A DNA stretch of 64,000 bases from Sycon ciliatum. Its lineage: Eukaryota; Porifera; Calcarea; Leucosolenida; Sycettidae. Shown here one piece after another: positions 755-60,074 of the stretch. Numbering within the stretch: the stretch's first letter is position 1; every line of letters begins with the position of its first letter. Position numbers and translations under genes: made by a program. The notes beneath the pieces are model-generated. The model was given only the letters and a program-made list of their open reading frames with translations. It was not told where the DNA came from and did not search any database. The stretch covers positions 14,947,035 to 15,011,034 of the forward strand of contig NC_088643.1 in NCBI RefSeq assembly GCF_964019385.1, given 5' to 3'.

Positions 755-1121
755 TTGCTGTTGTTCCGGCTATTGCTGCTGCTGTTGTTGTTGTTGCTGC
801 TGTTGTTCCTGCTGTTGTTGTTGCTGTTGTTGCAGCTGTTGTTGTTGCTGGTGTTGTTGCTGCTGTTGCTGCTGTTGTTGCTGCTGCTGCTGTTACAGCT
901 GCTGCTGTTTTTGCTGCTGTTGTTGCTGCTGTTGAGGATGCTGCTGTTGCTGCTGCTGTTGTTGCTGCTGCTGCTGCTCTTATAGCTTCTGCTGTTGTTG
1001 CTGCTGTTGTTTATGCTGCTGTTGCTGCTGCTGTTGTTGCTGCCGTTCCTGCTGCTGTTGCTGCTGTTCCTGCTGCTGTTGTTGTTGCTGCTCTTGTTGT
1101 TGTTGTTGTTGTTGTTATTGC

Positions 1122-1182
<61 letters not shown>

Positions 1183-1245
1183 GCTGCTCTTGTAGCGGCT
1201 GTGTTTGTTGTTGCTGTTGCTGTTGTTGTTGTTGTTTGAAATCTT
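755..1245. repeat. CTG/TTG (CAG/CAA) trinucleotide microsatellite
   Basis: About 490 bp of nearly uninterrupted mixed CTG and TTG triplets, with a pure TTG run near 1124-1180. The reading frames through it are low-complexity poly-Leu (plus) or poly-Gln and poly-Thr (minus) and are not evidence of a protein. A minus-strand polyglutamine exon cannot be excluded, but no splice-compatible flanking exon was found. Confidence 0.9.
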
Positions 1246-2295: not shown

Positions 2296-2629
2296 GTTTT
2301 TGTTACCGGAGAAAGTATGAAAAGTATGAATGCCGCAGACATCAACACACCAGGCGCTTGAAAAAACCTTTCTTTTTTAAATTTCGTCATTTCTCAACAT
2401 TTTTACGAAACCCAAAAGACATGTTTTAGCTGATCGCGGCCCATGTAGACGGTGAGTCAGTGACTTGTCCATTTGACCCCATGCCATGGGGCGGTGCCTG
2501 TACTGTAGTTCGGCTTTACATGTAGTCGCCGGCCAAGAAGCAATGATGGGTGCCTCCGTTAATTCTATTGCATCGATTCGCTATAGATTTTATTACTTTA
2601 CTAGGGGAGTCCCAAATAAAATAAATATA

Positions 2630-2694
2630 CCCAGTTGTTGACCACTCCAGCTTACCAGAGCGACCTTGGCGTTATGGATTTGGATACGCCAAAC
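2630..2694 (+). pseudogene. truncated remnant of bZIP second exon
   Basis: This matches the middle of the 150-nt zipper exon (codes from about TQLL to DLDTPN) but lacks the zipper start and the 3' splice donor. It joins directly to spacer sequence beginning TTGACACAAAAC. It marks a deleted unit at the 5' edge of the array. Confidence 0.75.
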
Positions 2695-3336
2695 TTGACA
2701 CAAAACTACTACTACATGTATATGTAAATAATCTACGTGGAGATAAAAGTTTAATAATAGCTATGAAAAGTATGAATGCCGCAGACATCACCACACCAAG
2801 CGCTCGAAAAAATCCTTTCTTTTTATTTCGTCATTTCTCAACATTTTTACGAAACTCCAAAGACATGTTTTAGCTGTTCGCGGCCCATGTATTCGGTGAG
2901 TCAGTGACTTGACCATTTGACCCCATGCCATGGGGCGGTGCCTGTACTGTAGTTCGGCTTTACATGTAGTCATCGGCCAAGAAACAATGATGAATGCCTC
3001 CGTTATTTCTATCGCAGCGAATCGCTAGTAGATTTTATTATTTTAATAGGGGAGTCCGAACAGGCGTTGCCCTTTTACTGGGAACCCTAGGTGAATTTTG
3101 ACCATGTTTACATAAAAGATGGGGCCTGACAGCTTTTCCCATGTTAAAATTTGCTGTCTTGGTCATATTTGAAAAGACAGCGACAACTATCTTGTGACAA
3201 CAATGTCGCTTGGGCTGGTTCTGTTTATTGCGGTGCTACATTGAAGAATTTCCTTCAGTCAATTAGTATTTTTGTTCAGTCTTTATTCCAGATTTCTTAT
3301 TGGTTATTCTGCTGTGCGATGCTCTTTTCGTGGGAG

Positions 3337-3430
3337 GGTAGCAAATGCAGCATCTGCTCGTACATCACAAGAAAGGGCGAAAGCCTATTTCAAGAAATTG
3401 GAATCGGAGGTGGAGAAATTGAGTCAGGAG
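3337..3430 (+). CDS. bZIP basic-region exon, unit 1 (type A)
   Basis: The exon follows a TTTTCGTGGGAG acceptor (intron phase 2) and ends phase 0 at GAG|GTGAGT. It codes GRVANAASARTSQERAK followed by the start of a leucine zipper. The bZIP signature Asn-x7-Arg is altered here: the Arg is Gln (CAA), unlike the other seven copies, so DNA binding by this copy may be impaired. A ~147-bp tandem duplication of the exon end and following intron sits at 3563-3698 and supplies a decoy GTGAGT donor. Confidence 0.7.
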
Positions 3431-3869
3431 GTGAGTCCTACTGGTCCTATTAACCATGTTTTATAATTATCATTATACACAAGAGAGATTGGAAGCTATC
3501 CATATCTCATAGCATGTCGTTGAGACTGCCAAGTAATTTAGAGATAAGGGTGATTGCCAACAATTGAGTCAGGAGGTGAGTCCTACTGGTCCTATTAACC
3601 ATGTTTTAGAATTATCATTATACACAAGAGAGATTGGAAGCTATCCATAATTATCTCATAGCATGTCGTTGAGACTGCCAAGTAATTTAGAGATAAGGGT
3701 TATTGCCAACAATGGCCTATAGGACGAAACAAGGGAAGCGACAAAGAGAGCGAGTCACAGATAAATCATTCTCGAGTTAATTTGTCAGCAGTGCCTACTT
3801 CTATTCGACCATCTGTCATTGTAAACACGAGATCAATACTTTCCCTTGTGCGTTTATTGTTGCATGCAG

Positions 3870-4019
3870 AATGTCCAATTGAAGGCGCGAGTCAATGTGT
3901 TGGAGACCCCGCAGAAAAATACGCAGTTGTTGACCACTCCAGCTTACCAGAGCGACCCTGGCGTTATGGATTTGGATATGCCAAACATAGGCATCAATCC
4001 GGCGTTGTTTGATGACCAT
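3870..4019 (+). CDS. bZIP zipper exon, unit 1
   Basis: A 150-nt, 50-codon exon in phase 0 at both ends, with acceptor TTGTTGCATGCAG and donor CAT|GTGAGT. Joined to the basic exon it gives LSQE-NVQLKARVNVLE, with leucines at exact seven-residue spacing and an Asn at the start of the exon. The C-terminal part ends PNIGINPALFDDH and contains DLDM, the type A variant. Confidence 0.75.
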
Positions 4020-4886
4020 GTGAGTTTTCATAGTTTTCTTTGTCATGTTTTACTATGAGCTGCTGAGCATGAATCACTAGTCACGTTTTTTGACACAAAA
4101 ACTACTACTACATGTATATGTAAATATTCTACGTGGAGATAAAAGTTTAATAATAGCTATGAAAAGTATGAATGCCGCAGACATCACCACACCAAGCGCT
4201 TGAAAAAAACCGTTCTTTTAATTTCGTCATTTCTCAACATTTTAACGAAACCCCAAAGACATGTTTTAGCAAATTCCGGCCCATGTAGTCGATGAGTCAG
4301 TGACTTGACCATTTGACCCCATGCCATGGGGCGGTGCCTGTACTGTAGTTCGGCTTTACATGTATTCGCCGGCCAAGAAGCAATGATGGGTGCCTCCGTT
4401 AATTCTATCGCATCGATTCGCTATAGATTTTATTACTTTACTAGGGAAGTCCCAACAGGCGTTGCCTTTTTACTGGGAGCCCTAGTTGTATTTTTACCAT
4501 GTTTACATAAGAGAGGGGCCTGACGGCTTTGCTGATGTTATAATTTGCTGTCTTGGTCATATTTGAAAAGGCGGCAACAACAGTCATGTGACAACAATGT
4601 CGCTTCAGCTGGTTCTGTTTATTGCAATCCCTACACTGTCTTACTAAGTACTCAAATACATATAAACTATCTTAGTCATTTTTCCTGTATTCCCTATAAG
4701 AGCCTATGAAGAGAAGGGAACGAAAATGTTCAGTTTTTAAATTCCCTATTGTTGATTTGGACTGGTGTGGATTACGCAGATGCATGTGCTACATTGAAGA
4801 ATTTCCTTCAATCAATTAGTATTTTAGTTCAATCTTTATTCCAGATTTCTTATTGGTTATTCTTCTGTGTGATGCTTTTTTGGTAG

Positions 4887-11139: not shown

Positions 11140-14100
11140 TCAGTCCAGGACATAGTCAGCTAGTCGAGCAGGTGCAGTGCGGACACGGCCAGAACGACGA
11201 GAAACAGGAGAAGAAGTACGGACCGGATCAGACGACGGTGGCTGTAGCGGCGGAACGCAGCGCGGCAAATCATCATCAGGCAGCGTAATCGGGTCAGGAC
11301 GAGAAGCAGTAACGGCAGGCGGTTGACAGTCGGGAGGACGGGAAACGGCTTCAGGCGGACGAACAAACTTGCCACTGGCAGCATCATATCGGGTGAAACA
11401 CTCAGACAGAGCAGGATCAGCATACGGAGCAAGAAGACTCTGAGGCTTGTAACAATCCGGCAACGGTCCAGCAGCAGAGGAACCAGGAGGACGAACAAAA
11501 ACGGCCGGAGGAATAATCTCAGCAGCCGGAGGAACATCAACAGCAAGTGGCACTTCATCAGCAGCTGACAACGGAACATCACGGGCAAGAGGCGGCGGAC
11601 TCGGCGGAGGAGACGGCACATCGGTCACCACGCGGGACATAGCATCGGCATTCAGATGTTGGCGACCTGGACGGTGGACGACTCGGAATTCATATTCGGA
11701 TAAACAGTCAAGCCAACGTGCTTTCCGTCCGCGGGGTTCCTTCAGGTTCCGGAGTGCAGTCAACGCAGTATTGTCCGTCCTGGCAACAAATGGTCGTGCC
11801 AACAAGTAGTGCCTGAAATACTCCGCAAAATAGACCAGAGCAAGGGCCTCACGATCGCTAGCATCGTAGTTGCGCTCAGCTTTCGTCAGTACACGACTGC
11901 CGTACCCAATTGGTCGCTCAGTTCCATCCTGGATCTGACTGAGGACTGCACCAATCGACACATTGCTCGCATCGGTGTCCAGAATGAATGCACCTGCTGA
12001 ATCTTCAAACTGGGGGTACGCCATCACCGGCGCACTGGCAAGCGAACGCTTCAGAGCCTGGAACGCCGCTTCGCAAGCTTTCGACCATGCAAAGCGAGCA
12101 TTCTTGCCTGTCAGAGCAGTCAGCGGAGCAGCACGCTGGGCGAACCCACGGATGAAGCGGCGATAATATCCAGCGAAGCCAAGGAACTCGCGGACAGCTG
12201 TGACAGATTTCGGAGTCTTCCAGTTCCTGACCGCGACGAGTTTGGCTTCATTCGGGGAGATGCCCTCCGCTGACACGCGGTGTCCTAAGAAAGTGACCTC
12301 CTCCTGGAAGAAGGAGCATTTCTTCAGATTGAACCGCAGTCCAGCGGACCGAACTCGCGCGAACACGGGCAGCAGAATCTGGAGTTGGCCAGACAGCGTT
12401 TCGCTGGCATTCAGGACATCATCAAAGAACACACGGCAGAATGGCTGGACCGGTGTGTTACATAAGCCACTCAGGACTGCTTCCATTACGCGCTGAAATG
12501 TCGCTGGGCCATTCCTGCAGCCCATCGGCAGAACATTAAACTCAAACAAGCCCAGTGGCGTGGTAAATGCCGTCTTAGCCTTGTCGCTTCCTTCCATTGC
12601 TATTTGCCAGTATCCTGACGCTAAGTCAAGGGACGTGAAATACCGACAGCCAGACAGGGAATCAAGCATGTCATCCGCCCGGGGAATCGGGTAAGCATCA
12701 GGCTCGGTGACAGAGTTCAACTTCCTGTAGTCGATACAGAGTCGAAGAGAGCCATCCTTCTTTGGCACCAATACTATGGGTGATGCCCACGGACTAATCG
12801 ATTCTTGTATTATGCCTTGCTTTAACAGCGTATTCAGTAGATCTTGCAGAGCCTTCCGGCGGTGATATGGAATCCGCCTGGTAGGTTGTTTTATAGGGTT
12901 ATTTTGTCCTGTGTTAATTTTATGAGGGAATATGTCACAGTAGCCATAGTCATCATCATGCAAGATAAATAAATCGTGGTTATCATGAAGTAGTTCAGTG
13001 AGCGTGCGAGACTGTTCTGTGGAGAGATGATTTTGTGCGTTGATATATTCATCGATGACTTTCTTGCGTTGCTCAGTTAGCGGGATCGGGTCGGGTGAAA
13101 CTGAGGAAACCATAGCTTCAGTGTCGTCAATATGTTCACAATCTGTAGGAATTTGATGAAGTTCGGCAACATTGGTATTTTTATGAATGAGTATAGGATG
13201 ATTTGCATGATTTTCAACAGCCACAACCACACGTGTTTGGTTAGGGCCAACAGTTACAAGACTAGGAGTCACTGCCACATCTGGATGCTTCGCCATAAAG
13301 GACTCCAATGGATCTGCCACGCAATCCATCGCAACCGTGCACACATCAACAGCTGCACAAGGCACCAAGACAACATGTCCTGCAGGTACCGACAACTCCA
13401 TCTCAAACACCACACGAGATGAGTATACCACAGGGTCAGCCACACTCCCGGGCGCACACGCCGGGACAACGCCAGGTTGAGCCATGGGTTCAACAACCCG
13501 TGCAGACAATGAATCGTCAAGGGCAACACGAGAAGAATACGACGAAACAGGTACATCGTCGGAGCATGCATCAGAATGAGGAGTATGAGTATTACATGAG
13601 GGGGAAGTATTACGCGGAACAATACGATCATAGGGCGTACGTGACGGAGGACACCCGGAACCAGAAACATGCAACGGAACAGACACATCGCCAAACATCA
13701 CAACACCACGAGCAATATCTAATACACCACCATGCTGCAACAAAAAATCGGAACCAAGAATCATGTCACAGTGAATACCAGGAGACACAACAACCGTGTG
13801 CTGGAAAGACAGATTTCCTAGCGACATACACAGATCCATGGATCCAACGACAGGAAGTTGTGCGCCATTGACTGCACACAACCGCGGAGCAGACTCTAGA
13901 GGAGGTCGCTCTGTCAAATTAGGCAACAATTTAGAATGCACTAACGACACACTTGAACCAGAATCAACAAGAGCAACAACAGGAGACGAAGACGAAGACG
14001 AAAGACAAACATCAACGTGCACAATAATGGGTGAGATCGCACCACATACCTCCTCGAGGGGCTCCACTCGGACGACTGACGGCGGCCCCGTGTCACCAGT

Positions 14101-15159
14101 CCAACCTAGTTTTTTTGCGTGCGGGCAAGATGCAATGAAGTGGCCCTCTTCACCACATCCATGGCACACTCCACGGACAGGCCTCGCAAAACTCTGGCCA
14201 CGACCACGACTAGGCGCACCAGCACCAGCACCACGAGCAACAAAACGTACATGGTCTTGCTGGGGTCGGGTGGGGCGATACAGACTCACGCTCTCCATTT
14301 TCGCCTCCAAAGCAGAGAGACGCGAATCAAAACTCGACAAAAGCGAAGCCAACTGGTCTCGCTCAGATTCCGACTTCAGTGGACCGACTGCTGTGTAGGG
14401 GTCACGACCATGACGGGGCTTCACTTCCGGAGCAGCAGCAAATACGGGCTGTGCGTACTGGTGAGGTACGGTGCGGGCCTGCTCGCGAGCATAAATAGCA
14501 CCTACCTCGATGGCCTTTTGGACCGCCGCATCCAAATCAGTGGGCCGAGGTGACGCCAACGCCAAGCGCAAATCCTTCGATGCCTGGCCATCAATAAAAA
14601 GTTGCAAAAGCATTGAATCAAGCAGTGCACCTTGTTGTCCTGGGTAGGCTCGACGAGCGAGCCGACGAAGTTCCGTGGCGTACCCGTGCTGAGTTTCACT
14701 CGCCAGCTTCACTCGCTGGCGAAGACTGGCCTCGTGCATCAATGCTTGCTGGGGCGGCTCAAGACGGACATGCAGAGCCTCGACTGCGTCGGAAAAGTTT
14801 ATGTCACGCGTGTGAGTTAGAATTTCGGTGAACATCTCATGAGCTGTACCAACAAGGCGAGCAGGTAGTAGCCGTAGCTTTTGTTCGTCGTCGTACCCAC
14901 TCAACTCGCATGTGTGGACGAAATGCCTCATGTACGTGGTGAAATCTTGGCCTGGCTGATTTCCGAATGTCTCAGGAAGCAAGACTGGCTTCGGCAGTGG
15001 ACGTGCATGTGGTGTGTCTGTGTCCGGCAAACGAAAACGATGGGACAACCCTTGTACCGGCGAACTCTCGCGCTCTTCAGCAATGTTCATGTCACAGCCA
15101 GCTTCAGCGAAGCTACGCTCTAGCTTTTCTTGTCTCTTGGATTTCGCTGAACGGCCCAT
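11140..15159 (-). CDS. Gag-Pol polyprotein of Gypsy element, integrase missing
   Basis: 1339 codons without a stop or frameshift. Gag includes a CCHC zinc knuckle (CHGCGEEGHFIASC, about residues 332-345). An aspartic protease follows (VALVDSGSSVSLV, about 395-407). Reverse transcriptase shows RLCIDYRKLN, FTSLDLASGYWQ and the catalytic FFDDVL, where YxDD is usual. RNase H begins LDTDAS and ends NADAMSR. After that, about residue 1179, the frame passes straight into a proline-rich tail ending RRSGRVRTAPARLADYVL, which resembles the extreme C-terminus of Gypsy integrases. The zinc-binding HHCC module and the DDE core are absent, so an in-frame deletion of integrase is the simplest reading. The start is the first Met after the leader. 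Confidence 0.92.
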   Translation of the reverse strand: MGRSAKSKRQEKLERSFAEAGCDMNIAEERESSPVQGLSHRFRLPDTDTPHARPLPKPVLLPETFGNQPGQDFTTYMRHFVHTCELSGYDDEQKLRLLPARLVGTAHEMFTEILTHTRDINFSDAVEALHVRLEPPQQALMHEASLRQRVKLASETQHGYATELRRLARRAYPGQQGALLDSMLLQLFIDGQASKDLRLALASPRPTDLDAAVQKAIEVGAIYAREQARTVPHQYAQPVFAAAPEVKPRHGRDPYTAVGPLKSESERDQLASLLSSFDSRLSALEAKMESVSLYRPTRPQQDHVRFVARGAGAGAPSRGRGQSFARPVRGVCHGCGEEGHFIASCPHAKKLGWTGDTGPPSVVRVEPLEEVCGAISPIIVHVDVCLSSSSSSPVVALVDSGSSVSLVHSKLLPNLTERPPLESAPRLCAVNGAQLPVVGSMDLCMSLGNLSFQHTVVVSPGIHCDMILGSDFLLQHGGVLDIARGVVMFGDVSVPLHVSGSGCPPSRTPYDRIVPRNTSPSCNTHTPHSDACSDDVPVSSYSSRVALDDSLSARVVEPMAQPGVVPACAPGSVADPVVYSSRVVFEMELSVPAGHVVLVPCAAVDVCTVAMDCVADPLESFMAKHPDVAVTPSLVTVGPNQTRVVVAVENHANHPILIHKNTNVAELHQIPTDCEHIDDTEAMVSSVSPDPIPLTEQRKKVIDEYINAQNHLSTEQSRTLTELLHDNHDLFILHDDDYGYCDIFPHKINTGQNNPIKQPTRRIPYHRRKALQDLLNTLLKQGIIQESISPWASPIVLVPKKDGSLRLCIDYRKLNSVTEPDAYPIPRADDMLDSLSGCRYFTSLDLASGYWQIAMEGSDKAKTAFTTPLGLFEFNVLPMGCRNGPATFQRVMEAVLSGLCNTPVQPFCRVFFDDVLNASETLSGQLQILLPVFARVRSAGLRFNLKKCSFFQEEVTFLGHRVSAEGISPNEAKLVAVRNWKTPKSVTAVREFLGFAGYYRRFIRGFAQRAAPLTALTGKNARFAWSKACEAAFQALKRSLASAPVMAYPQFEDSAGAFILDTDASNVSIGAVLSQIQDGTERPIGYGSRVLTKAERNYDASDREALALVYFAEYFRHYLLARPFVARTDNTALTALRNLKEPRGRKARWLDCLSEYEFRVVHRPGRQHLNADAMSRVVTDVPSPPPSPPPLARDVPLSAADEVPLAVDVPPAAEIIPPAVFVRPPGSSAAGPLPDCYKPQSLLAPYADPALSECFTRYDAASGKFVRPPEAVSRPPDCQPPAVTASRPDPITLPDDDLPRCVPPLQPPSSDPVRTSSPVSRRSGRVRTAPARLADYVLD

Positions 15160-15685
15160 TGTGAAAAAAAAATTGTTTTTGTATTTTTGAATTTTCGAAA
15201 AAAAAATTTATCTGCAAAAATTTCCCGTGGACTCGATCGACTATCGATCTCAATCTATTACGTAACCTATCGTGCGTAGCGGCAAACAACTAAATTTGGC
15301 AGAGACAATTCCAAATAGGCAACTACTCTACGGACACAGTGTAGCTAGACTCTACTACCCAGCTAGCAGATATCCTAACAAGACACTAGACAGCAGCCAG
15401 TATGCACAAAACACGGACACAGAAAATGTTCCGAAAATGTTTGGCCAGACAGGTTGGCGCCAATGCTTGACCTATGGACTGTAAACCATGGTAAACAATG
15501 CATGCAACAAGAAAACGACGAGCAGAAAGAAACACAATGCAGATAGGAAAATATTGACGAAGAGAGTGGATGAGGATATGGTTTCCGACTTGCGTGGGCC
15601 TTCGTGGTACTTCATAGTCGGCGATCTCCGAAGGCGTACATACTCCGCCAGCGATGGAGTGGTGGACGTTTTCCGCTGCCACCAG
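15160..15685 (-). other. 5' leader of the Gypsy element
   Basis: 526 bp between the 5' LTR and the Gag start with no credible ORF. It contains the putative primer-binding site at its right edge and presumably the packaging signal. Confidence 0.6.
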
Positions 15686-27638: not shown

Positions 27639-28340
27639 TTACACCTTGCGCGCAATGCCATCAATATGGGGTGTCCAGGTCAAGCGGCAGTCTATGTTTA
27701 CGCCTAGGATTCTGGTTGAGTCAACAACGGTCAGAGGGACATTATTTATGGAGATTAGTGGAGGCGGGATAGGAACTGGGGATGGGGAGAAGAACAAGAC
27801 AACAGGCGTGTCTACATTAACCGTTAGACCAAGGTCCGTTACAGCAGCAGAGAGTGACGAGAGCGCCAAGTTCAGTGTTTGTGCAGCAAGGCGAAGGGAT
27901 TTGTGGGATGAGTACAGAGTCATGTCATCGGCGAACATGGGGAGATGAAAACCATGCGCTTCTGCGGTCTTGGGGAGCTCACGGAAATATAAATTGAACA
28001 GCACAGGCCCCAGGACAGTGCCCTGAGGAACTCCACTTGAGACGACCAAGGTGCTGGAGCATCCACGTTGGGTTACAACCCGCAGTGTCCTTTCCGACAG
28101 ATACGAGGCAAACCAGTTCAGTGGTATTCCACCAATTCCTGCGCTGGAGAGGGACTCGAGGAGTATTTGGTGGCGGACTGTGTCAAACGCTTTCCGTAGA
28201 TTTATGCAGGCTAGAACTGCGGAAAGGCCTCCATCACGGGCATGGAGCCAGTCCTTCGTGACTTTCGCTAGCAGCTGCACGGTGGAACAATGTTTCCTGA
28301 AGCTTAACTGGTTTTCATCAAATGGGCGTTGCATGGTCAA
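27639..28340 (-). pseudogene. non-LTR reverse transcriptase fragment (CR1/Jockey-type)
   Basis: A 233-codon open frame covering RT palm motifs: LRKAFDTVRH, SSGVPQGTVLGPVLF and the catalytic FADDMTL, then a thumb motif (STRILGVNIDCRLTW). The N-terminal endonuclease and C-terminal tail are missing, so this is a truncated copy. Confidence 0.82.
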
Positions 28341-28510
28341 GTAACAAAAACAATACTTTGGTGCGAGAAAGGGGCGCTAATATTCCACCAAATAATATAA
28401 ATACGTTTAATAACTAAACCGGAAGGGAAAAAGAAAAAAGAAAACAATAATCATAGCAAGCAAAGTACTAGTAGAAAGATAAATGGGTGTCAATATCATC
28501 GTCACAGCTA

Positions 28511-33790: not shown

Positions 33791-34149
33791 TCCCAGGACG
33801 AGGCCTAAGAAGCTCCACGGCCTCTTCCTCCATCATGTCAAAAGGTGTCTACCATGCTGTGATCGGTGGGCAGGAGGCACTCAAACAGCGCGAAACGCAA
33901 CTACTATGCAACTACCAAACGAAAATGCAATTCTACATTTCAAAGAGTATCCTGTCGGTGTCGTCGTCATCTTCAAAAATTTGAAAAAGGCGCTCCTTTC
34001 CGTGAACTGTGCACCCCCAGATGGTGCGCAGTATCGCCGACGAGAGCGGAGAAATTGGCTTCTCCTGAGCTTCTGCCCTAACTCTGAAGATGACAACAAG
34101 CGGAATCCAGGTCAGGTATACATACTTTAGGCCGTAGTGAAGAACCCAG

Positions 34150-35185
34150 GTTGTCTGCTTGAGACTGAAACGGAATTTTTTTTGAAGTTTGGGCCGCTGG
34201 ACTATAGTACTTCTCGCTGGCGAAACGAAGACGGAAGGACCACACTACGACGCTATACTCAATCACAGGTCTAACATAGCACTTGTAGAGGAGCATCATG
34301 GCCTGCGGTGTAAGACGATGTGCCATGTGACAAAGTAGGCTTACTCTTTGCTTGAATTTGCGACTGATGTCAAGATAGTGTTGACGGAAGTTTAAGTCTG
34401 CACTGAAGCGAACTCCCAGATGTTTGAGGATGTCAATACTGGGAAGAGGTAGACCCTCCATAGTGTAGGTGGCAGATGTTGGTGCTGGTGACGATGCTGC
34501 CGCTGGCTTATAACGGAAGCTTAAAACAGAAGTTTTTGAGGGCGAAAACTCTCCGCCTCTTTCCCTGGCCCAGTTTTGATATGCATGAATGTCTGCTTGG
34601 ATACCAGGACTTGACAGCGAGCCTTTGTACGGCAAAATTAGAGTGACATCATCCGCAAACAAGAAGGTGTGCGAGTGATGTATGGCTTCTGGTAGGTCAT
34701 TAATGTAGATCACGAACAGTAGAGGTGACAGATGCGATCCCTGGGGAACACCACAGTTGGTGACTTTGGGCCCTGACATGCATGACTCAATCTTCACGGC
34801 TATGCTTCGATCCTGCAAATAGCTCTTAGTCCAGGCAGTGACTTTATGGTCCGAGAATTTACTGACTTGACGGAGGAGAGTTGAGTGGCTTACTCTGTCA
34901 AATGCCTTGCAGAAATCTAGGGAGACCAGGTCGAAGTTCAGACGCTCATCAATGTAGTCGGCCATTTGCTGGGTAAGTATAATAAGCTGGTCTGTCGCAG
35001 ACTTCTCCTTCACGTACGCGTATTGTTGACTGCATATCTTCTGTTTTATTGTTAGGTAAGCCTGGAGTTGTTTCGCTACTATTTTTTCATAGAGTTTTGC
35101 TATACAGGGGAGGAGGGATATTGGGCGGTAGTTCGTAGGGTGAGTTGGGCAACCTTTCTCCTTGTACACTGGGACATTATGTAAA
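34150..35185 (-). pseudogene. non-LTR reverse transcriptase, 5'-truncated
   Basis: One open frame of about 345 codons of RT sequence: NYRPISLLPCIAKLYEK, LVSLDFCKAFDRVSH, GVPQGSHLSPLLFVIYINDL, catalytic FADDVTL, thumb ILKHLGVRFSADLNF and YVRPVIEYSVVVW. The N-terminal endonuclease is missing; upstream of about 35185 the frame becomes unrelated, and the C-terminal end is degraded beyond VVVWSF. It is closely related to the element at 58.9-60.1 kb. Confidence 0.85.
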
Positions 35186-35299
35186 ACAAAATTTGAACTC
35201 GCGATCTTGCACCAGCGCGCCCCAGTCAAAGAAGTAATCCTGTGACCATTGGAAACACGACAAGCGCAGGTGACACGACTTTTGTTTGTCACCACTTGG

Positions 35300-36160
35300 C
35301 CTTGTAACTACGACTACAAGTTTTCAGGCAGCGTGACGTAGGCACTTCAATAGTTCGCGAAAATGATGAAAGTTGCGAAAGTTGCTTGCGACTTCTCTGC
35401 CGGGCGAGGAGTCACACACTGTTCCACATGCCGATCCTGTATCAGCTGCTTGTTGCAGTCCCGGATAGGGCCCCTCAACGTGGCCCTGAAATCTGTCACA
35501 ATGGTACGAGTGGGCGTTCTCTCACAGACTCGCACAGACCCAAGTCAATTTTTGAATTTTTTCAGGTTTAGGGCATGCTACGAGGTCATTTCCACAGCGC
35601 TGCAAACCAAATCCAGGATACCCTCCAAAATCGGCAAAGACTACCACTCACGTTCCACTACTGCCTAGTACTGAATCCTACCTGACTTCTTGACACGACT
35701 CAAACTTGCCAAAGTCACTAAATCAACGTCATACAATAATCAAGCCACATATCTGCAACGTCACGAGGGTGCTGGCAAAAGTCCTGCTGCACGGCGGCGG
35801 GCGAATCCCGCCGCCGTGCAGCCCAATACATGGCTAAAAAACGTGATGTTTTGGACTTGGAGCAAAATTCTGCAAACTTTCGCGCTTTTCCATGATACGA
35901 CAAGTTGCACACGGTCTGCTCACATTCAAATACATGTACAGTGCTACTAAAAAATGACAGGTTGCTACCCAAAAATCTTTCCTTGCAAGGGCACATTTCG
36001 GCCATAACTCTTGAACGGCTGGTCAGATCGAGACAAAACTTTCAGAGATTTTGCAGCTGTTCATGCTCTTTCAACTGATGTAGCACTCGATATGAATTTA
36101 CAAATTCGATTTTTCAGGGTTAAGACCAGGTGGTCGCTAAAACGAGAGGTCGCTTACACC
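35300..36160. other. unassigned region with GC palindrome
   Basis: No supported gene. A perfect inverted repeat (TGCACGGCGGCGGG, five-base loop) lies at about 35789-35821. Confidence 0.45.
35789..35821. repeat. GC-rich perfect hairpin
   Basis: 14-bp arms TGCACGGCGGCGGG with a CGAAT loop. It stands alone in AT-richer sequence. Confidence 0.85.
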
Positions 36161-36275: not shown

Positions 36276-37217
36276 GTGTGCCTCTTTTGAGTCCTTTTGG
36301 CCTTGGGCGATGGGCACGAACTATTTCCAGAATTGTACCGTATTTTCCGGAGTGCTGCCCCCGGGTCTGAAAGCACATTCGACGTGGCGCTGATGGTACG
36401 GACTTGAGTTTGCATATCATGCCGGCCTGTCGGATCGGGAAAGCTGGAGGTAGCTGTCCGATTCATACGACACGACAGGAAGTTGCTGTTGCGACGTTCA
36501 ACGTCGATCGGCGCAAGCAAGAGCACACAATATCAAGACTGTATATGATGCAGCCCCCATGCACACTTGATACTATGATACCCCATGTTTTCTTGGTGAA
36601 TGTTTGTTTGTTTGTCTGTGTAATCTATTTTATTTCGCAAATCCAAACGAGCACAAATGCTCAATGACAGCGACAAGGCAGCGAATGTTATTGTGTTACA
36701 AGGAAGGAGAGTTTGTGAGAAAATAATGAGAAAGAAGAGAGAATGGGAGCTATCTGATTGATTGATTGATTTTTATTTCACGGATCCTCCAGAGGCAAAT
36801 AGATGCCTATCGAAGGGAGTATGTCAATGAAGAGCTATGAGTTGTCAAAACTAGAAAAGCCAGCTAATGACAGTTCTGGGAAATCGCCTAGTTAGGGCAT
36901 CGGAGGTTTCCTTGGAAATCACGTACGGTGCGTACGCGTCTGCAAGCGTCATATTTTTTCCTGCACAAAGTGATCATGGATTTGAAAGCACCGTGCATCT
37001 AAAAAATAAGCAAATTTCTTTGCCTTGCATGTCCAATGCGGAAAAACCTGCTGAGTTGCGGAGATTCTGTGCATGCGGAGATGGGAGTAATAGGACTCCT
37101 TGAGATATCCAGTGAAAAAAAAATTCACTTTCATGTGCCGTTTTTTCAAAATGTGAAGAAAATAGATCGCTTGGAACGAATTTATCACAGTTTGTCGTGG
37201 TTTATTGAGCTGAGGCA

Positions 37218-40200
37218 ATGAAGAAGAGCGGTATCCAGACGCGGCGCTCTAAGCGTAGAGTTAGTGTTACTCCTGGACACTACTCTTGTCCTAACCCTTT
37301 CCATTCGGATTGGGAAAGCCCTTCCTCGTCCGCCAAGGACACGACAACGAGGAGGGCTGTTCTGGACGTCCTCTCCAGTATTGCTGGACGTCCTGTTTCC
37401 TCGATCTGCAGAGGGTGCAGAGCTGTGGCCGACTGCAAGCCGGAAGTCGTCCAGCACGAGCTGTATGCACCACCAAGGACGTCCGCAGACTCGCTCAAGG
37501 TTCCATCTCCAAGTGAGGTACCTGCCCCACCTAGCCCACTCCCAGAAAACAAACCTGTAGGGTGTGGGGACTGTGAGGAACTAAGGGATTTAGTGGAGAA
37601 GTTGCAGAGGGAGGTTGATGAGTTGCGGGAAGAGAACGTGTTGCTGAAGTCAAGGGAATGTTTAGATGAGCTTCTTGCGACAGAGCAGGGTAGGGTAAAG
37701 GTAGTTAATGAGATATGTAAGATAGAGAACAAGTTTCTGTTTGCGGAAACTCTAGACGCCATTAGCCACTCAAAGGAGAGTAGGAAAGTGGAGTCATTGC
37801 TGGGCATCCCCGCTGGGCGCATCACTTCCCGCTCCTATAATCCCGTAGTAGAGGCTTTTGTGTGTGGCATGACGGCGCCACTTTCAGTGCAGTCGTCCGT
37901 AGGGGCAGCAAAACGTAGCATGCGCCAACAGGAAGCTATCGAATCGGTTTACGCTGCTCGGAACCTGAACTATTGCTCCCAATTCCACATGGTGTTTCAG
38001 GCAGTCGTGTACGCTATCACGCAAAGTAAAACTGCTGTGGACATGATTGGCCACTTGGGTCCAGGGAGTAGCTATGCCCTGCTGAAAGATTGGCTTGGCA
38101 ATCTAGGAGGTGAGCCTGTTAAAGTGCCAAGGGGCTTTGTTACAGTGGGATTTGACAATGAGCAGCGGCAAATGCGCTCGTATTTATCACGGGGTGCGAA
38201 TCGGTCAACTTACGAGATTTTGACGAATGTGGTTTACGCGTTACATTCGGCACAGGACCTGCAATCCGTAGAAAACTATCACATGCGGCACTGGTCCTTT
38301 CCGAGTGAGGAACAGCTTTTAGAAGCACTCCGTGGCCCTGCTCCGACCTCTCCAGCATCGCCAATGCACAGCTATTTGGCCAGCTATGTTGGAAATAGAA
38401 TAGCTGGTCTGGCAATGGAGCACAACAATGGTTGTGACCCAGTAGTAAGATTCCGACAGGAGGAGGAAGCTAGCAGATCTTTCATAGTTTGCCCTGGGTG
38501 TCAAAAGCAGTACGAGAAAAGAAAAGTAAAATGTAGCAATTCGGAGTGTACTGTCACAAACATCAGGGCTGCTATCGCAGAAGCAGCCGGTCTTTCTCGA
38601 GTGTCCACTGAAGTTCTCCGTCTTCCGTCTTCCCCGGCAGTGGGAGCAGGATCGCACTTTGTGTATCGCAATGTAGCAGACAGTGGTGGGGTGAGTGTAG
38701 GGCGGGTTAGGGCAACACGCTCAGAGCAGTTAGATTCTCCTCCTGTCCCTCCGGCAAATGTAGGATTGCTCGAGCCTGTCTTTGTGAACCCCAATTCACA
38801 TGAGGCAGTGCGTGTTCTCCTGAGGGAAATTGGGACAAGTGCAGGTGTGAAGCAATGTGTTGGTGAGCAGGGCTGTAGAGAGTGGCTTACCATTGTCTGT
38901 GATGGCCTTCCGTATTCACTCATGCGTACTGTCATTGCTCAAAGTAGAGACGAGGCCAGGAAAGCAGCGTACCATGCCGCGGGCATTTTAGATGTAGGTA
39001 GCATGAGCAAGGAGTTGTTGGTGGGCTACTGTAGGCAGCACTCTTTGAATGTGTCTGGCAGCCTAGCATCATTGCGTAGCCGTGTAAGCACTCATGTACA
39101 GGGCAGGGTAGCGAGTGGAGATTTGAATGTGCCGGGTAGCATCCCTGCAGGTGAGTTCGACTGGGTTGTGTCGCAAAGTGGAGGCCTTCACTGGGAGATG
39201 AACTTGATCCAGGCCATTGTCAAGACTCTTTGGCCTTTTGTGTACAAAGAGTTTTGTTTCAGTCAAGGCTACAATTCGCCGCGTCAGCTAGACTGGGCCC
39301 ACAAGGCCAAGGACCACCACCGCACTTATGATGAACTTAGTCGCTTCACAGATGGATGCATGGATGAGCTGCTACGCCCCTATGTTGTGTCGTGTGCAAG
39401 TGATTGTGCCCCCACTGCAGAAGGTTTCTTTGAGTGGGCCAAGAAGTTCGAGAAGAACAAGGTGTTCTCTTGGCTCTTGGAACTGGTGACGACATACTGC
39501 TTCACCCTGTTTATGCTCCGCCGTGGTGCACGCCACTGCGATGTACCTTTGTTCCTGGCAGCACGCAGGACCATCAGCCCGCTGCTGTATGCACGTAACC
39601 ACACCACCTACCAACTCATTGACATGTTTGAGGAGCAGCAGCGACTTGCCATGCCTGAAGATCTGAGATGTGAACTTGACAAGCATATGTTCTTGTCACG
39701 ATCGGGCAGAGGCGACTCCCACCAAGCCCTGGACGCTATTGTGGAAGAGCTAAATGCCAACATTAAGGCCTGGATCTCGGGGGAGAAGGACTCCAACATG
39801 TGGCGCCGTGTAGTCCGCAACTACAACCAGTTAGTGAAGCTGCGCGGCAAGGTGTTTTGTACATTGGGGTTGACTGACCCCAAATCAGCCCCCAAGCCAC
39901 GGCCAGCTTACACCAAGGAGCTCGTGGTCTGGCGATCCCGTGTGCGCCAGTTCTTGTGCCCTGATGACTGCTTGGCCTTCCAGCGTCCACTGGAGTCCAT
40001 GTCTACTGAGTTTGTAATGGACAGTGCTGCTATGGAACTCACCGCTGAGGGGAAACGGCGCCGGCGGAAGATGTGCTGCACCTTTGCAGACGGCAAATCC
40101 ACGACAGCTCGTGCGACAGCAGCAATGCACTTTGTGACCGTTGAAGAAAGGGAGAAGTCGTCTGGAGATGCACGCCGCTCTGTCTCGTCTCTCAAGGCAG

Positions 40201-40370
40201 AATTCCAGCGGATGCTGCAGTCTCTACCCGAGCAGTCATTGGCGGGCGGCCTCAATGACAGCATGGCCAAGGCGACCTTGCAAACCGATGTCCTGTCCAT
40301 CGTCCGGGAAATGCGGAGTTTGGTGTCTGTCAGCTGTGCCCATGCGTGCTCGTCGGACGAGGACAACTAG
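37218..40370 (+). CDS. large uncharacterised ORF, candidate transposase
   Basis: 1050 codons, single exon, undamaged. The N-terminus has basic residues and Cys/His pairs. Residues 119-147 form a heptad coiled coil (LRDLVEKLQREVDELREENV). Cys 425, 428, 440 and 445 could bind zinc (CPGCQ...KCSNSEC). Residues 595-630 resemble a SAP DNA-binding motif (ELLVGYCRQHSLNVSGSLA). Acidic residues in conserved-looking contexts are Asp313 (VGFDNE), Asp562 (IVCDGLPY) and Glu660 (GLHWEMN), a possible DDE triad. The segment with DHHRTYDEL, LLRPYVVSC and YARNHTTYQLIDMFE resembles a large family I associate with cnidarians and sponges. Position between TIRs makes transposase the leading guess. No named family is asserted. 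Confidence 0.6.
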   Translation: MKKSGIQTRRSKRRVSVTPGHYSCPNPFHSDWESPSSSAKDTTTRRAVLDVLSSIAGRPVSSICRGCRAVADCKPEVVQHELYAPPRTSADSLKVPSPSEVPAPPSPLPENKPVGCGDCEELRDLVEKLQREVDELREENVLLKSRECLDELLATEQGRVKVVNEICKIENKFLFAETLDAISHSKESRKVESLLGIPAGRITSRSYNPVVEAFVCGMTAPLSVQSSVGAAKRSMRQQEAIESVYAARNLNYCSQFHMVFQAVVYAITQSKTAVDMIGHLGPGSSYALLKDWLGNLGGEPVKVPRGFVTVGFDNEQRQMRSYLSRGANRSTYEILTNVVYALHSAQDLQSVENYHMRHWSFPSEEQLLEALRGPAPTSPASPMHSYLASYVGNRIAGLAMEHNNGCDPVVRFRQEEEASRSFIVCPGCQKQYEKRKVKCSNSECTVTNIRAAIAEAAGLSRVSTEVLRLPSSPAVGAGSHFVYRNVADSGGVSVGRVRATRSEQLDSPPVPPANVGLLEPVFVNPNSHEAVRVLLREIGTSAGVKQCVGEQGCREWLTIVCDGLPYSLMRTVIAQSRDEARKAAYHAAGILDVGSMSKELLVGYCRQHSLNVSGSLASLRSRVSTHVQGRVASGDLNVPGSIPAGEFDWVVSQSGGLHWEMNLIQAIVKTLWPFVYKEFCFSQGYNSPRQLDWAHKAKDHHRTYDELSRFTDGCMDELLRPYVVSCASDCAPTAEGFFEWAKKFEKNKVFSWLLELVTTYCFTLFMLRRGARHCDVPLFLAARRTISPLLYARNHTTYQLIDMFEEQQRLAMPEDLRCELDKHMFLSRSGRGDSHQALDAIVEELNANIKAWISGEKDSNMWRRVVRNYNQLVKLRGKVFCTLGLTDPKSAPKPRPAYTKELVVWRSRVRQFLCPDDCLAFQRPLESMSTEFVMDSAAMELTAEGKRRRRKMCCTFADGKSTTARATAAMHFVTVEEREKSSGDARRSVSSLKAEFQRMLQSLPEQSLAGGLNDSMAKATLQTDVLSIVREMRSLVSVSCAHACSSDEDN

Positions 40371-41256
40371 ATTGTCTTCCTGGTGGTGATTGGTTTGGCT
40401 ATGTTGCTGACGCCTGTCCGGTGAGTACAGCCTCTTCTGTTGTAATTTTTTATATGTGTATCTGTTGATCAATAATTATTGGTCTATTGATTTATGATCA
40501 ATTTAGGTGCATGTGGATGAGGTAAGTGGCCTTGGATACTGTAAGTTTGTGGACCAGTATGAACTGGTAAGTGTCTTGGAAAGCACTGCTGAATGTAAAT
40601 TTAATATTGTTGATTTTTAAAACCCAAGTGCAAACCTGCATCTGAAAACTACCCTAAACATATCTCTAATTTATTTTATGTTCTGATCCTGATGTCAGTG
40701 ATTCATAGGATATTTATTTCAGTTCTTTTAAATACACCTACCTTCTAGGATGATAAATCACTCACATGATGAGAATGTTTTGGCTGATGAAGGGTGGTGT
40801 TGCGAATCGTGTTGTCATGTTTGCATCAGGCATCTACACCAGTGTTGTATGCATGTGTTCTTATCTACTCCATGCGCAGATACCAGTTCTTCCTGTAAGT
40901 TGCGAGTCCACACCGACTCAACGCGAAAGATGAAGATTGTTTTCTACTCAGACACAACGCCATCAGTGTATAGACTTTTTCAACACTTGCTTCTTGCAAT
41001 GCCGGTGATTTTGACATAACTTATGAGCACCTTCGTTTATTATCGTTTGTTATCTTCATCAACAATGATAAACTATGTTTTTTTACTTAGAATCCCTCGT
41101 TTCAACTCCAAATTTTTGCCTTTGATGATATGGCATAATGGTATTCTCACATGCTACATTCTAGAACAAAATCAGAATAATAGATATTAATATGTACATG
41201 GTGAATCAACTCGTAATAATATATTGTACATGATCATGATGATGGTGAATCAATTT
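40371..41256. other. intergenic space between the two convergent genes
   Basis: About 0.9 kb of AT-rich sequence inside the TIR element with no gene recognised. It presumably holds the 3' ends of both transcripts. Confidence 0.5.
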
Positions 41257-41760
41257 TTACTGGTAAGAGTTTGGGCGTGCTATGCATGCGACTGGAGTAA
41301 GGCTAGGCGTAGTGCATGGTAAGGTGGGAGTTGGTGAGGTGGGAGTTGGTGAGGTGGGAGTTGGTGAGGTGGGAGTTGGTGAGGTGGGAGTTGGTGGGGT
41401 GGGAGTTGTAGGGGCAGGAGGTGGGGAATTCGATTTTTTAAGGGCTGGGAAGAAGTCGTCTACCGGACTGCTGCTATAAAGGTGCTCAACACCTGATGGC
41501 GAGATCACCAGAACTAGCACCTTGGCGTGTGTAGCTTCATGAAGCTCCATGCCCTGCGTCAACACAAAGATGCAAACACAAGAAACTTTATATCAGGTGA
41601 AAATTCGCAATGTACAACAAGGTAGAGGATAGAGGAAACTTACCGCTCGAATCAAGCCATTTTTACGTTTGCTGAGGCAGCTCAGGCGCTTCACTTTGTC
41701 GGCGATATAACCTGTTATTTTTCTCTTACGAGTCGACGGGGATGAGGAGTTGAGTGACAT
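41257..41760 (-). CDS. SRF-type MADS-box protein, two exons
   Basis: Exon 1 is 41760-41644 (39 codons) and ends GCG|GTAAGT. A 90-bp intron (41643-41554) ends GACGCAG, and exon 2 is 41553-41257. Both junctions are phase 0. Exon 1 ends KRLSCLSKRKNGLIRA and exon 2 begins GMELHEATHAKVLVLVISPS. This aligns without gaps over about 50 positions to the metazoan SRF MADS core, including the basic SKRK, the x-G-[IL]-[IM] turn, the E-L pair and the hydrophobic beta strand VLVLV. A Pro/Ser/Thr tail of 15-bp repeats follows. Predicted product about 137 aa, with no SAM-like extension recognised. An upstream in-frame ATG near 41946 is an alternative start. It should bind CArG-like DNA as a dimer if expressed. 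Confidence 0.75.
41320..41412. repeat. 15-bp coding minisatellite
   Basis: Six near-perfect copies of GGTGGGAGTTGGTGA. On the minus strand they code repeated PTSPT in the tail of the MADS-box protein. Confidence 0.9.
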
Positions 41761-41967
41761 TGTACAAAAACGGAAGTAAAACAAAGACTGGACGAAAGGA
41801 AAGGAAAGGAGATTTTTTGAAAAAAAGTTCATTTTCCCTTTTGTTATGACCACCACGTGCTGTGAGACAGGGTCCAGCTCCGCCTTGGCGTTATATTTCT
41901 CCTTCTGACGTAATGTTTTCATCACGTGGGCACCGTACATACACATTGTCCTAACTAGGCGATTTCC

Positions 41968-42142
41968 AGGACTGGTATACGGTACGACGGCAGCTTTGAA
42001 GCTGCTGAGCGACGATACTCACGACGAAATGGCTCCAAAAGCAGAACGAGCAGTGCTAGCAGGTGGGACCACAAGCAAGTTACTTCGGCCTCCTCGAGTG
42101 CGGGTTGAGGGCATGACAGCGAAAAAGGACTGAAGTAGGGTG
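41968..42142 (+). repeat. partial copy of the 317-bp repeat
   Basis: Matches the right half of the units at 45543-46177, starting at GGTATACGGTACGACGGC and ending AGTAGGGTG. It contains the 34-codon frame beginning MAPKAERAVLAGG at 42029. It lies between two different transposons. Confidence 0.8.
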
Positions 42143-42445
42143 CTACCAGTCCGTGCGCCAAGTTCAAAAAAGTCGTCTAAAAGTTGCACTTTTATTTGCA
42201 ACCGCGGGAAATTTGAAGACGAATTTAGTGACATACCGAATTCTTCTCAATTTTCGACAATTGGTTACCTTGAGAATACAGGCTTATCCTCCTATATCGA
42301 TTGCTTTTGCGCCGTTATCGTGTTAGAAGGGTGAGCGATGAGCACATTTTTCGAAAGTGCACCACGATATTCGACATCTCACGTCGTTGCGGTGCCTTTT
42401 TGTTTCTCTTCTCAATTTCGAATTTCGTAGATACGTCGCAGGAGA

Positions 42446-44672: not shown

Positions 44673-45542
44673 TGCAGCTGAATTCCAAGACACATGCTCT
44701 CACAATGCATTCGCATATGCTGCGGACGCTGAGTCTCCAGCTCTTGCTTTTCTTTCAGGCCCTGCACTTCTGTGCAGTTGTGCTAAACTACATAAAAAGT
44801 TTCTTTGACTATGAACTCCATCTATAATGTAATGAACGTCCTACCATGGTACATACAAAAGAAACTGTTCAACAGACTACCTTCAGCCAGAACTTTAGCA
44901 AACTAGATTAGCAGCCAGGAGTACTGCTGGATTTTGATTAAAATCTGGACCCCAACCACACGACTTACATAGAAATTCCGTTTAGATGTCGAAGACACAA
45001 CAGCAAGGGGACTAGTTTGCAATGTCGAGATGCCCAAGGAAAATAAGCAGCCAAAACGTCCTTGTTCAAGCACAATTACTTTAGTGCAAAATTCCACACA
45101 ATTCGACATACCTTCACGAAATTGTGGGCCGCTCCATTTTGCATAGCCTGATTGGGATGTGCTTTGGGAATCTAAACCCAAATATATCTGCCTTTCGCTT
45201 AGAGCATAAGCCGAGAGTGTCCGATTATGCTATCCACTCATGCACGACAAGCAAGTTGATGGTACGATTACGACGAAAAAATATGTAGTGCAAACACAGG
45301 TCTTCATGGTCTACAGTTGGGCGCAACGAACCTCAGCTAAAGTGCCATAGAGGACAAAGGGACATACCTCAGCAGCAAACCAAGTAATGGACAAGGATTC
45401 CTCCAGCACACGCCAGTTCAGGTCCAAATAAGGTTGCAAAATACCAACAAAACAATTGTGTCGTCGTCATCTTTTTGCACCTCGATTTTTCCCGCGGTTG
45501 CAAATAAAAAACAGGCTACTCAAGGGCTTGGCGCACGGACTG

Positions 45543-46177
45543 CTACATGCAATGAAGAGCTATGAGTTGTCAAAACTAGAAAAGCCAGCTAATGACAGTT
45601 CTGTAACCCGCCTAATAAGGTACTGCTAAGACGGTACTAACTGCAAACCAGAATACTCCTGCTTAGTAAATATCAGGGGGTCGGGGCCGGGTATACGGTA
45701 CGACGGCAGCTTTGAAGCTGCTGAGCGACGATACTCACGACGAAATGGCTCCAAAAGCAGAACGAGCAGTGCTAGCAGGTGGGACCACAAGCAAGTTACT
45801 TCGGCCTCCTCGAGTGCGGGTTGAGGGCATGACAGCGAAAAAGGACTGAAGTAGGGTGCTACATGCAATGAAGAGCTATGAGTTGTCAAAACTAGAAAAG
45901 CCAACTAATGACAGTTCTGTAACCCGCCTAATAAGGTACTGCTAAGACGGTACTAACTGCAAACCAGAATACTCCTGCTACTAAATATCAGGGGGGTCGG
46001 GGCCGGGTATACGGTACGACGGCAGCTTTGAAGCTGCTGAGCGACGACACTCACGACGAAATGGCTCCAAAAGCAGAACGAGCAGTGCTAGCAGGTGGGA
46101 CCACAAGCAAGTTACTTCGGCCTCCTCGAGTGCGGGTTGAGGGCATGACAGCGAAAAAGGACTGAAGTAGGGTGCTA
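45543..46177 (+). repeat. two tandem ~317-bp repeat units
   Basis: Units 45543-45859 and 45860-46177 are nearly identical. Each runs from CTACATGCAATGAAGAGC through GACAGTTCTG, a short TIR-like segment and GGTATACGGTACG to AGTAGGGTG. Each contains the 34-codon frame MAPKAERAVLAGG... at 45745 and 46061. They preserve the empty sites of the two flanking transposons. Confidence 0.85.
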
Positions 46178-46262
46178 CATGCGTCATGCAAACATCGCCA
46201 GAATGGGGCAGATAAAACAAAACAATCATATTCATGTGCACAGTAACCTGTAGATCACATAC

Positions 46263-58393: not shown

Positions 58394-58857
58394 ATTATTA
58401 TTATTATTAACTTGTATTTTACTAGGGTGTTTCCCACAGACCTATGGTCTTCTTACGGGAGCCCCTAGGAAGGTTATGCATGAGCAAATAAATGAGCGGT
58501 AATCGTATAATGGTTCTGTGCAAAATAACAGGGGAATTTTTTTGTAGAGGGTGTTGTACTGTAGTAGCACAAGTTCAACGGGGTCAACGCACCATCCAAC
58601 CTAGCTACGACCGTCATTGATTGTAGTGGACTGGACATGTTATCAAGGGAGTCGTAAACCTACGACTTCCTGGTGCATCTACATGTACTTGTACTTGTAG
58701 AACATGTACAACTGTGTGGAATTTGATGCGAACAGGCAAATTATTCCAATTTTATGCGATTAGTATGCAATTTGCCTCGAATTATGCGATTATTCGATTT
58801 TGGTAGGAATTATGCGAAAAATTATGCTAGCACAATCTGTCAAGGCCTAAACCTTGC

Positions 58858-60074
58858 CTGTAATTGATCAAGAGTGGTCATGGGTTTCTTATTAGATCCA
58901 AACGACCACACCGTACAGCTATATTCGATCACAGGTCTTACGAACCCTTTGTACAGTATGATCATTGCCGAAGGCGTAAGTTGCTGGGACATTATTGACA
59001 GTAGGTGCACTCGATATCTGAACTTCGAAGTTATTGAGGCGACATGTTTGCGGAAATCCAGGTTGTCGGTCAAGGTGATGCCAAGATGTTGCAGTTCAGA
59101 AACCACCGTTAATGGCTCATTGTACATTTGGTATTGGATTCCTGCAGTAGGTGTATCATTGATAGCTCTATGGCACAGCACGGATGTCTTGCTTGCTGAG
59201 AATTCACCTCCATTGTTCCTGCCCCATGTTTGACATGCATCGAGATCAGACTGCATGTTCGCTCTACCGGCGAGGGTGTCTTCAGGTTTGTAAGCCAGTA
59301 GGAGGGTGACATCATCTGCAAATAGATATTCTGTGCAATGTTGCATAGCGTGGGGCAGGTCATTTATATAGAGTAGGAATAGGAGTGGTGAAAGGTGGGA
59401 ACCTTGAGGCACTCCGCAGTTGATGTTCCGCTTCTTCGATTTAGTGCTATGTACCTTCACTTCAATTTGTCGATCCCCTAAGAAGCTCTTCAGCCATTTT
59501 ACTGACGAAGCTGTAGCAATCTTACCGAATTTCTTTAGGAGTATAGAGTGGTCGACCCGGTCGAATGCTTTCCTGAAATCTAGAGATATCAGGTCAAAAT
59601 TAGTGCCATTATCAATATTTACAGCCATTGATTGGGTTAGCAAGATAAGTTGGTCCGTTACAGACTTGTTGCGTACATATGCGAATTGACCTTTAAACAT
59701 TACACCATGGGTCATCAAGTATCGAAGTAGACGTTCCGAGAGAATCTTTTCCATTAGTTTTCTATGCATGGGAGAAGGGATATAGGCCTGTAATTGGTAG
59801 GCTCTTTGGCGCAACCTCTATTCTTGTACACCGGTATTACGGTGGATGATTTCCAGGAGGACGGGAACACACCATCATCAAGGCTGTAGTTGAACAATAC
59901 TGATAGTGATTGGGAAAGGATGTCTGCGAATTGCTTTAGTACACGGTTTGTCAGGTTGATGTCTGATGATGATTTATGTTGTTGCAGCCTCCTTGCTGCA
60001 TCGAAGACGTCAATAGGGCGTATGTTTCCGAATCCAAATTTGTTTCCATCGACGTCGGCTTCATTGATTGTCAT
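58858..60074 (-). pseudogene. non-LTR reverse transcriptase interrupted by hAT
   Basis: Two overlapping frames (shift near 59770) give LNYSLDDGVFPSSWKSST-like finger sequence, NYRPISLLPCI, LISLDFRKAFDRVDH, GVPQGSHLSPLLFLLYINDL, catalytic FADDVTLL and YKGFVRPVIEYSCTVWSF, ending DQLQARF exactly at the hAT target duplication. It is related to the 34-kb copy. The N-terminal endonuclease is absent. Confidence 0.85.

Follow-up and report, generated by a model that had tools for sequence, protein, structure and literature searches.

Two-gene DNA transposons of the calcareous sponge Sycon ciliatum encode an SRF-type MADS protein

Transposons with two genes of their own and transposons with captured host genes are both known already. 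PIF/Harbinger elements possess, according to PMC2836001, two independent genes, the accessory one of which (ORF1) encodes a protein with a transcription-factor-type, Myb-like domain that binds the terminal inverted repeats (TIRs) and interacts with the transposase. In fungi, KDZ, Plavaka and other elements carry TET/JBP genes, i.e. host-type genes beside the transposase, as described in PMC12730594. Here, we characterize an element located in a stretch of 64,000 nucleotides of the genome of Sycon ciliatum (538 Mb; contigs are labelled C1, C2 and so on), which covers C1:14947035-15011034 and is designated the window in the following. This element is a two-gene, TIR-bounded DNA transposon, in which a large transposase-like gene faces an intron-containing gene for an SRF-type MADS protein. 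Genes of the MADS-box class are familiar from textbooks as regulators of development; known SRF/MADS proteins act as transcription factors, and MADS proteins bind CArG boxes.

The Sycon element shares with PIF/Harbinger the presence of two independent genes with a transcription-factor-type DNA-binding domain in the accessory product, and a partnership of the MADS protein with the transposase would extend this likeness. However, the domain is MADS rather than Myb-like, and Pfam scans gave no Myb match. Target duplications measure 5 bp here instead of 3 bp, and the transposase comprises ~1050-1170 residues with SAP- and DUF6589-like stretches and has no match to the Harbinger transposase in Pfam scans. 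The cargo of the fungal TET/JBP elements is an enzyme, whereas it is a DNA-binding MADS protein in Sycon. Kyakuja elements have 7-bp duplications and no TIRs and Zisupton elements have 8-bp duplications, according to PMC12730594, as opposed to 5 bp in Sycon. Ginger2/TDD elements also duplicate 4 or 5 bp of target, but PMC2836005 gives them TGTNR termini and a Gypsy-integrase-like transposase, whereas the termini of the Sycon elements are CAG and Pfam scans gave no integrase match. No MADS-encoding DNA transposon is named in the titles and abstract openings of the matches listed from the open-licence PMC literature, a scope outside which lie subscription papers, preprints and Repbase; the term DUF6589 is absent from the open-licence PMC literature searched.

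Element families, copies and target sites

A sequence-only reading of the window had proposed a DNA transposon carrying an intact ORF of 1050 codons and, convergent to it, a two-exon MADS gene with a 90-bp phase 0 intron. Both genes are as described: the open reading frame (37218-40370) encodes 1050 residues and the spliced MADS product 137 residues. That a DNA transposon encodes the MADS protein is corroborated by a second full copy, by sharp ends and target duplications, and by three further families of the same layout. In total, four related families (A, to which the window copy belongs, B, C and E) combine a large transposase-like gene with a convergent, intron-containing SRF-type MADS gene.

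The genome search with the family A element returned at least 69 matches, counting the best candidates only. Further copies containing both genes, which the reading had proposed to look for, exist, namely the full copy on C12 and members of families B, C and E. The C12 copy is 98% identical, is flanked by a 6-bp target duplication and has both genes open (transposase frame of 1060 codons, spliced MADS product of 122 residues). Shorter A copies of ~2.8 kb have lost most of the transposase; one A copy (C8:20400664) aligns at element positions 912-4219 alone, short of the MADS gene, and another (C1:75.69 Mb) has stops in the transposase.

Family B (element ~5.36 kb) comprises at least 12 copies, the aligned stretches of which are 98.7-99.9% identical to one reference copy. 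The full transposase of 1097 residues is present from start to stop in six copies, and the MADS gene is intact in 10 of the 11 copies whose MADS end is available, the remaining one having a shifted exon 1. EukProt protein P0005 (scpid21981) equals the spliced B product in 111/111 residues; scpid identifiers we take to be Sycon transcript models. Family C is represented by one transposase copy (on C3), which is open and accompanied by an intact MADS gene; its large protein, P0002, is listed in annotation as LOC135811302 of Sycon ciliatum. The C MADS protein (319 residues) continues after the MADS domain with Gln/Pro-rich stretches and then a PHD-like cysteine pattern. We considered a PHD finger here, as the cysteine spacing looks PHD-like, but a significant Pfam match was not obtained. 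A deleted C-type copy of 2.85 kb on C10 (in C10:9979000-9987094) is flanked by the perfect duplication ATGAC and retains only the first ~64 residues of the transposase; the MADS/PHD-like gene is the longest that it has intact. The MADS ends of three more C-type copies, assessed in 3-kb stretches, are intact (C7), devoid of the beginning of exon 2 (C1:83.28 Mb) or frameshifted (C2). In family E (C1:41.62 Mb), an open MADS gene of 99 residues lies convergent to a decayed transposase that is 33-45% identical to that of A in short pieces. A solo transposon-type MADS gene at C1:41626371 was rejected as a candidate, as the decayed transposase adjoins it.

Elements of the A, B and C type start with CAG and have a common ATC...CC...GG...ACA block, and TIRs are found at both ends of dispersed copies of A, of B and in the C10 copy of the C type. 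Among 18 insertions with both ends examined, a set excluding the window copy, 14 show perfect 5-bp duplications, two fit 6 bp and two have none. The consensus of the 14 perfect duplications is RTNAY; T occupies position 2 and A position 4 in 13 cases each. The transposase genome search scored 44 of 135 candidates. The survey leaves out several of the 54 SRF-TF stretches (among them C2:26783005, C3:23692537, C7:12205492, C9:14745620, C12:21244808, C12:26603898, C14:20773928 and C14:21220448) as well as weaker transposase matches (C4:3232979, C10:10173401, C11:11072663), and a transposase family without MADS gene could be among these.

Properties and joint constraint of the two proteins

The assignment as MADS protein was confirmed by a profile search, in which the spliced family A product matched Pfam SRF-TF with 36.7 bits (E 2.8e-9; cut-off 26); the products of C (48.5 bits), B (47.3 bits) and E (47.4 bits) exceed this cut-off as well. 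When a query of 87 residues was used, the closest solved relatives of the A protein were MCM1 (E 2.8e-6) and SRF (E 7.6e-5), and the gapless alignment with the SRF MADS core, noted by the sequence-only reading, holds for this query. The intron is in phase 0 and interrupts the same codon in A (90 bp), B (75 bp), C (282 bp) and E (672 bp), which is also the codon at which three Sycon SRF genes are split. The proteins differ from SRF and MCM1 in the shortness of the A and B products and in a tail motif, xPVACxARxxS, which is common to all four families with changes and replaces the SRF C-terminus. They also form a clade of their own (support 100/100) on a long stem, within which A and C split from B and E (99/95). 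This tree, calculated from 71 columns and with a bootstrap that had not settled, does not single out a nearest host relative of the long-stemmed clade. Among the best 120 of 2,874 matches of a MADS search in the large protein database, only P0005 is of the transposon type by score, the other rows being judged by score and not one by one.

The Sycon genome also contains three SRF paralogues (C4, C11 and C1), all with an intron within the MADS box. Six further SRF-like MADS exons (C3:23788566, C3:25559063, C13:1390485, C3:23752062, C10:17148917 and C10:16329815) have long, mostly acidic N-termini, HKRK/RKRK cores and a splice site at the SRF position; they are probably a sponge-specific host expansion.

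We call the large protein a transposase on grounds of element anatomy, and its gene is probably the one that moves the element. The B and C proteins are 53% and 60% identical to that of A. Resemblance to the DUF6589 family (PF20231), to which Pfam itself assigns no function, stays just below the cut-off of 27 bits in A (25.5 bits, E 6.6e-6) and C (26.5 bits, E 3.2e-6), with B at 22.5 bits, and precomputed database annotation gives P0002 the DUF6589 label. SAP matches exceed the cut-off in the B protein and in P0003. The SAP stretch did not significantly resemble MKL1, the SRF cofactor (E 0.29). Residues D313, D562 and E660, invariant in the four aligned sequences, are candidates for the catalytic site. 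When the large protein database was searched twice with transposase queries, scoring 8,000 candidates each time, one relative was detected besides Sycon proteins, namely P0003 (45%). Pattern scans for prokaryotic or viral relatives matched 49 viral-contig and 55 genome-contig stretches, none of which was confirmed by tblastn. P0003 itself comprises 785 residues, is encoded on a 4.2-kb contig and has 13 member sequences, and relatives of the transposase exist elsewhere.

Comparison of families A, B and C revealed saturated silent sites in both genes, with proportions of silent differences (pS) of 0.815-0.934 in the MADS region and 0.77-0.80 in the transposase, while the corresponding values for replacement differences (pN) were 0.22-0.40 and 0.30-0.37. 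For either gene, A and C are least diverged from each other. In the transposase tree, A groups with C (88/91) and B with P0004 (100/99); P0004, which matches family E at 69% in a stretch of 16 residues, would represent family E. With this assignment, the two trees have compatible splits (A,C versus B,E and A,C versus B,P0004). Across A, B and C, divergence of the MADS gene has paralleled that of the transposase, and both genes are under constraint.

Integrity of the two genes was also compared copy by copy. Among the aligned MADS ends of family A, the gene is intact in 2/2 copies with full-length transposase and broken in 10/10 transposase-incomplete copies, six of which share a 2-bp deletion in exon 1 and three a 2-bp insertion in exon 2, while one is interrupted in exon 2. 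In family B, it is intact in 6/6 copies with full-length transposase ORF. Copies lacking the MADS gene would have spoken against the element-borne gene proposed by the sequence-only reading; instead, the gene is intact wherever a full-length transposase ORF was found in A and B (eight copies). Taken together, the MADS gene has been retained and has evolved in step with the element, suggesting that its product is of use to the transposon.

CArG-like boxes and the possible role of the MADS protein

For CArG-like sites, we required 10 bp with an A/T core of at least 5/6. Family A (5.1 kb) contains two such sites in all, CCTAGTTAGG, both within the TIRs, while ~2.0 would be expected anywhere by chance. 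The 2.85-kb C-type copy on C10 likewise has CArG-like sites in its TIRs only, and the stretch examined of the full C element has a single one, in the right end. The chance of finding a site in one 30-bp arm is 0.009 (A) and 0.006 (C-type); neither the two arms nor A and C are independent. Location of these boxes inside the A and C terminal repeats favours a role of the MADS protein in regulation of the element or in recognition of its own ends. Since CArG-like sites are confined to the terminal repeats in both A and the C-type copy, we propose that a MADS dimer marks the ends, and we find it an evenly balanced proposition that the protein is an element-encoded DNA-binding subunit for end recognition. 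The dimer would recognise a dyad, CArG-like box in each terminal repeat, and the conserved tail (xPVACxARxxS) would recruit the SAP-bearing transposase there, which would then excise the element and insert it with 5-bp duplications at RTNAY sites. As the TIR boxes sit just upstream of both genes, the MADS protein may additionally control their transcription.

Several observations weigh against end recognition by the MADS protein. The ends of family B are devoid of a canonical CArG-like box and have the 11-bp sequence CCTTGTTYAGG instead, which is one base longer; the three 10-bp CArG-like sites of B lie outside the TIRs (~2.1 expected). B is the family with the most near-identical copies, and yet its ends do not fit. 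Moreover, the transposase itself may depend on the sequence in which the boxes lie, and this requirement would account for their conservation; a SAP-bearing transposase might also bind DNA alone. In the C10 copy, the MADS gene is intact although no transposase accompanies it, showing that MADS integrity does not always track the transposase. Finally, the catalytic core of the large protein, putatively of the DDE/D type with an RNase H fold, is conjectural; no solved structure significantly matches the protein (best E 0.16).

The main competing explanation is that the MADS protein takes no part in the transposition machinery but regulates transcription, either of the element or, in the cells in which it jumps, of host genes, and that the TIR boxes function in the promoters of two inward-facing genes. 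This is compatible with end recognition, and both may be true. Each TIR box is indeed upstream of one gene, with the transposase ATG ~0.34 kb and the MADS ATG ~0.2 kb inside the ends, transcription factor activity is what characterizes known SRF/MADS proteins, and family C adds Gln-rich stretches and the PHD-like cysteine pattern. However, the proteins of A (137 residues) and B (111 residues) are short and offer little apart from the MADS core. This point does not discriminate between the two explanations; we regard a role exclusively of this kind as rather unlikely. Less probable still is that the MADS protein serves the element against its host, for example by competing with host SRF or altering chromatin at the element to escape silencing. 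The TET/JBP dioxygenases of fungal elements, as presented in PMC12730594, would be a precedent, and the PHD-like pattern of family C, for which Pfam gives no confirmation, would fit, but the long stem places the transposon MADS clade far from host SRF sequence.

Besides regulation of the element, the sequence-only reading had considered a captured host gene and targeting to CArG-like sites. An SRF-type host gene picked up once and merely carried along would account for the intron position, which is that of host SRF and would be brought along with genomic DNA, and for the broken MADS genes in all ten aligned transposase-incomplete A copies. A passenger, however, should have decayed, and passive capture is disfavoured because the MADS gene is conserved across families whose silent sites are saturated; the gene moreover occurs in four families and is intact in every A and B copy with full-length transposase. 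In particular, a recent passenger is disfavoured by this cross-family constraint, and we consider a mere passenger highly improbable. It is equally hard to credit that the protein steers insertion to host CArG sites, although MADS proteins bind such boxes: the duplicated target is RTNAY, and the flanks of the 18 insertions, a small sample, contain one CArG-like site in 5,263 bases as compared to 1.9 expected from the window rate.

Two-gene organization, CAG termini, 5-bp RTNAY duplications, a SAP transposase and a captured SRF-type MADS dimer as end-recognition subunit would together define an undescribed superfamily, an assignment that we put forward tentatively, as a possibility somewhat short of an even chance.

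The window copy and the meaning of the Sycon elements

Table 1. Features of the family A copy, in window positions.
Feature	Position	Strand	Remarks
Left host flank	36821..36878		matches 316-bp repeat unit at 45547-45603
Left TIR	36879..36899	+	outermost ~8 bp of element apparently missing here
CArG-like box CCTAGTTAGG in left TIR	36887..36896		
Transposase-like ORF	37218..40370	+	1050 residues, intact; DUF6589-like and SAP-like stretches
SAP-like stretch	39009..39107	+	residues 598-630; below cut-off in family A
DUF6589-like stretch	39441..39821	+	residues 742-868; 25.5 bits, cut-off 27
MADS gene exon 2 with stop	41257..41553	-	15-bp repeats encode Pro/Thr stretch; terminal motif xPVACxARxxS
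MADS gene intron	41554..41643	-	90 bp, GTAAGT...GCAG, phase 0; codon position common to families B, C, E and three host SRF genes
MADS gene exon 1	41644..41760	-	39 codons
Right TIR	41947..41974	-	true end kept, ...CAGGACTG to 41974
CArG-like box CCTAACTAGG in right TIR	41950..41959		
Right host flank	41975..42146		matches 45691-45862 of 316-bp repeat unit

The 21-bp TIR pair of the sequence-only reading (36879-36899 and 41947-41967) is real, with 20/21 positions complementary, and a chance match is ruled out as other genomic copies begin and end at the TIRs. The true ends (CAG...CTG), however, lie 7-8 bp further out, and the proposed span of 36879-41967 has to be corrected: the element extends to 41974 on the right, while its left end is damaged and joined to a host repeat. 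Both flanks match one 316-bp repeat unit that recurs at 45541-45862. At the left junction, the unit lacks 87 bp and the element, it appears, its outermost ~8 bp, and no target duplication is present at the junctions of the window copy. The last eight bases of the left flank, CAGTTCTG (36871-36878), resemble the element end and are present in the repeat unit, too. The likeliest cause of the damaged left end is a small deletion after insertion.

The 316-bp unit is present in two tandem copies at 45541-46182, the element occupying another copy with pieces at 36821-36878 and 41974-42146, and contains the canonical CArG sequence CCTAATAAGG. Elsewhere in the window are an open frame of 1355 codons (11143-15207, minus strand) and ORFs that resemble, as judged by eye, pieces of reverse transcriptase (34081-35307, 58843-59817 and 27642-28376, minus strand).

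A MADS lineage that resides within transposons, is under selection and has retained the ancestral intron position shows how mobile DNA recruits host-type DNA-binding domains, and the Sycon elements provide a testable case for the evolution of end recognition. They also hold a warning, as some predicted 'MADS-box genes' of sponges are transposon genes, and they may help in assigning the unexplained DUF6589 proteins to the transposases.

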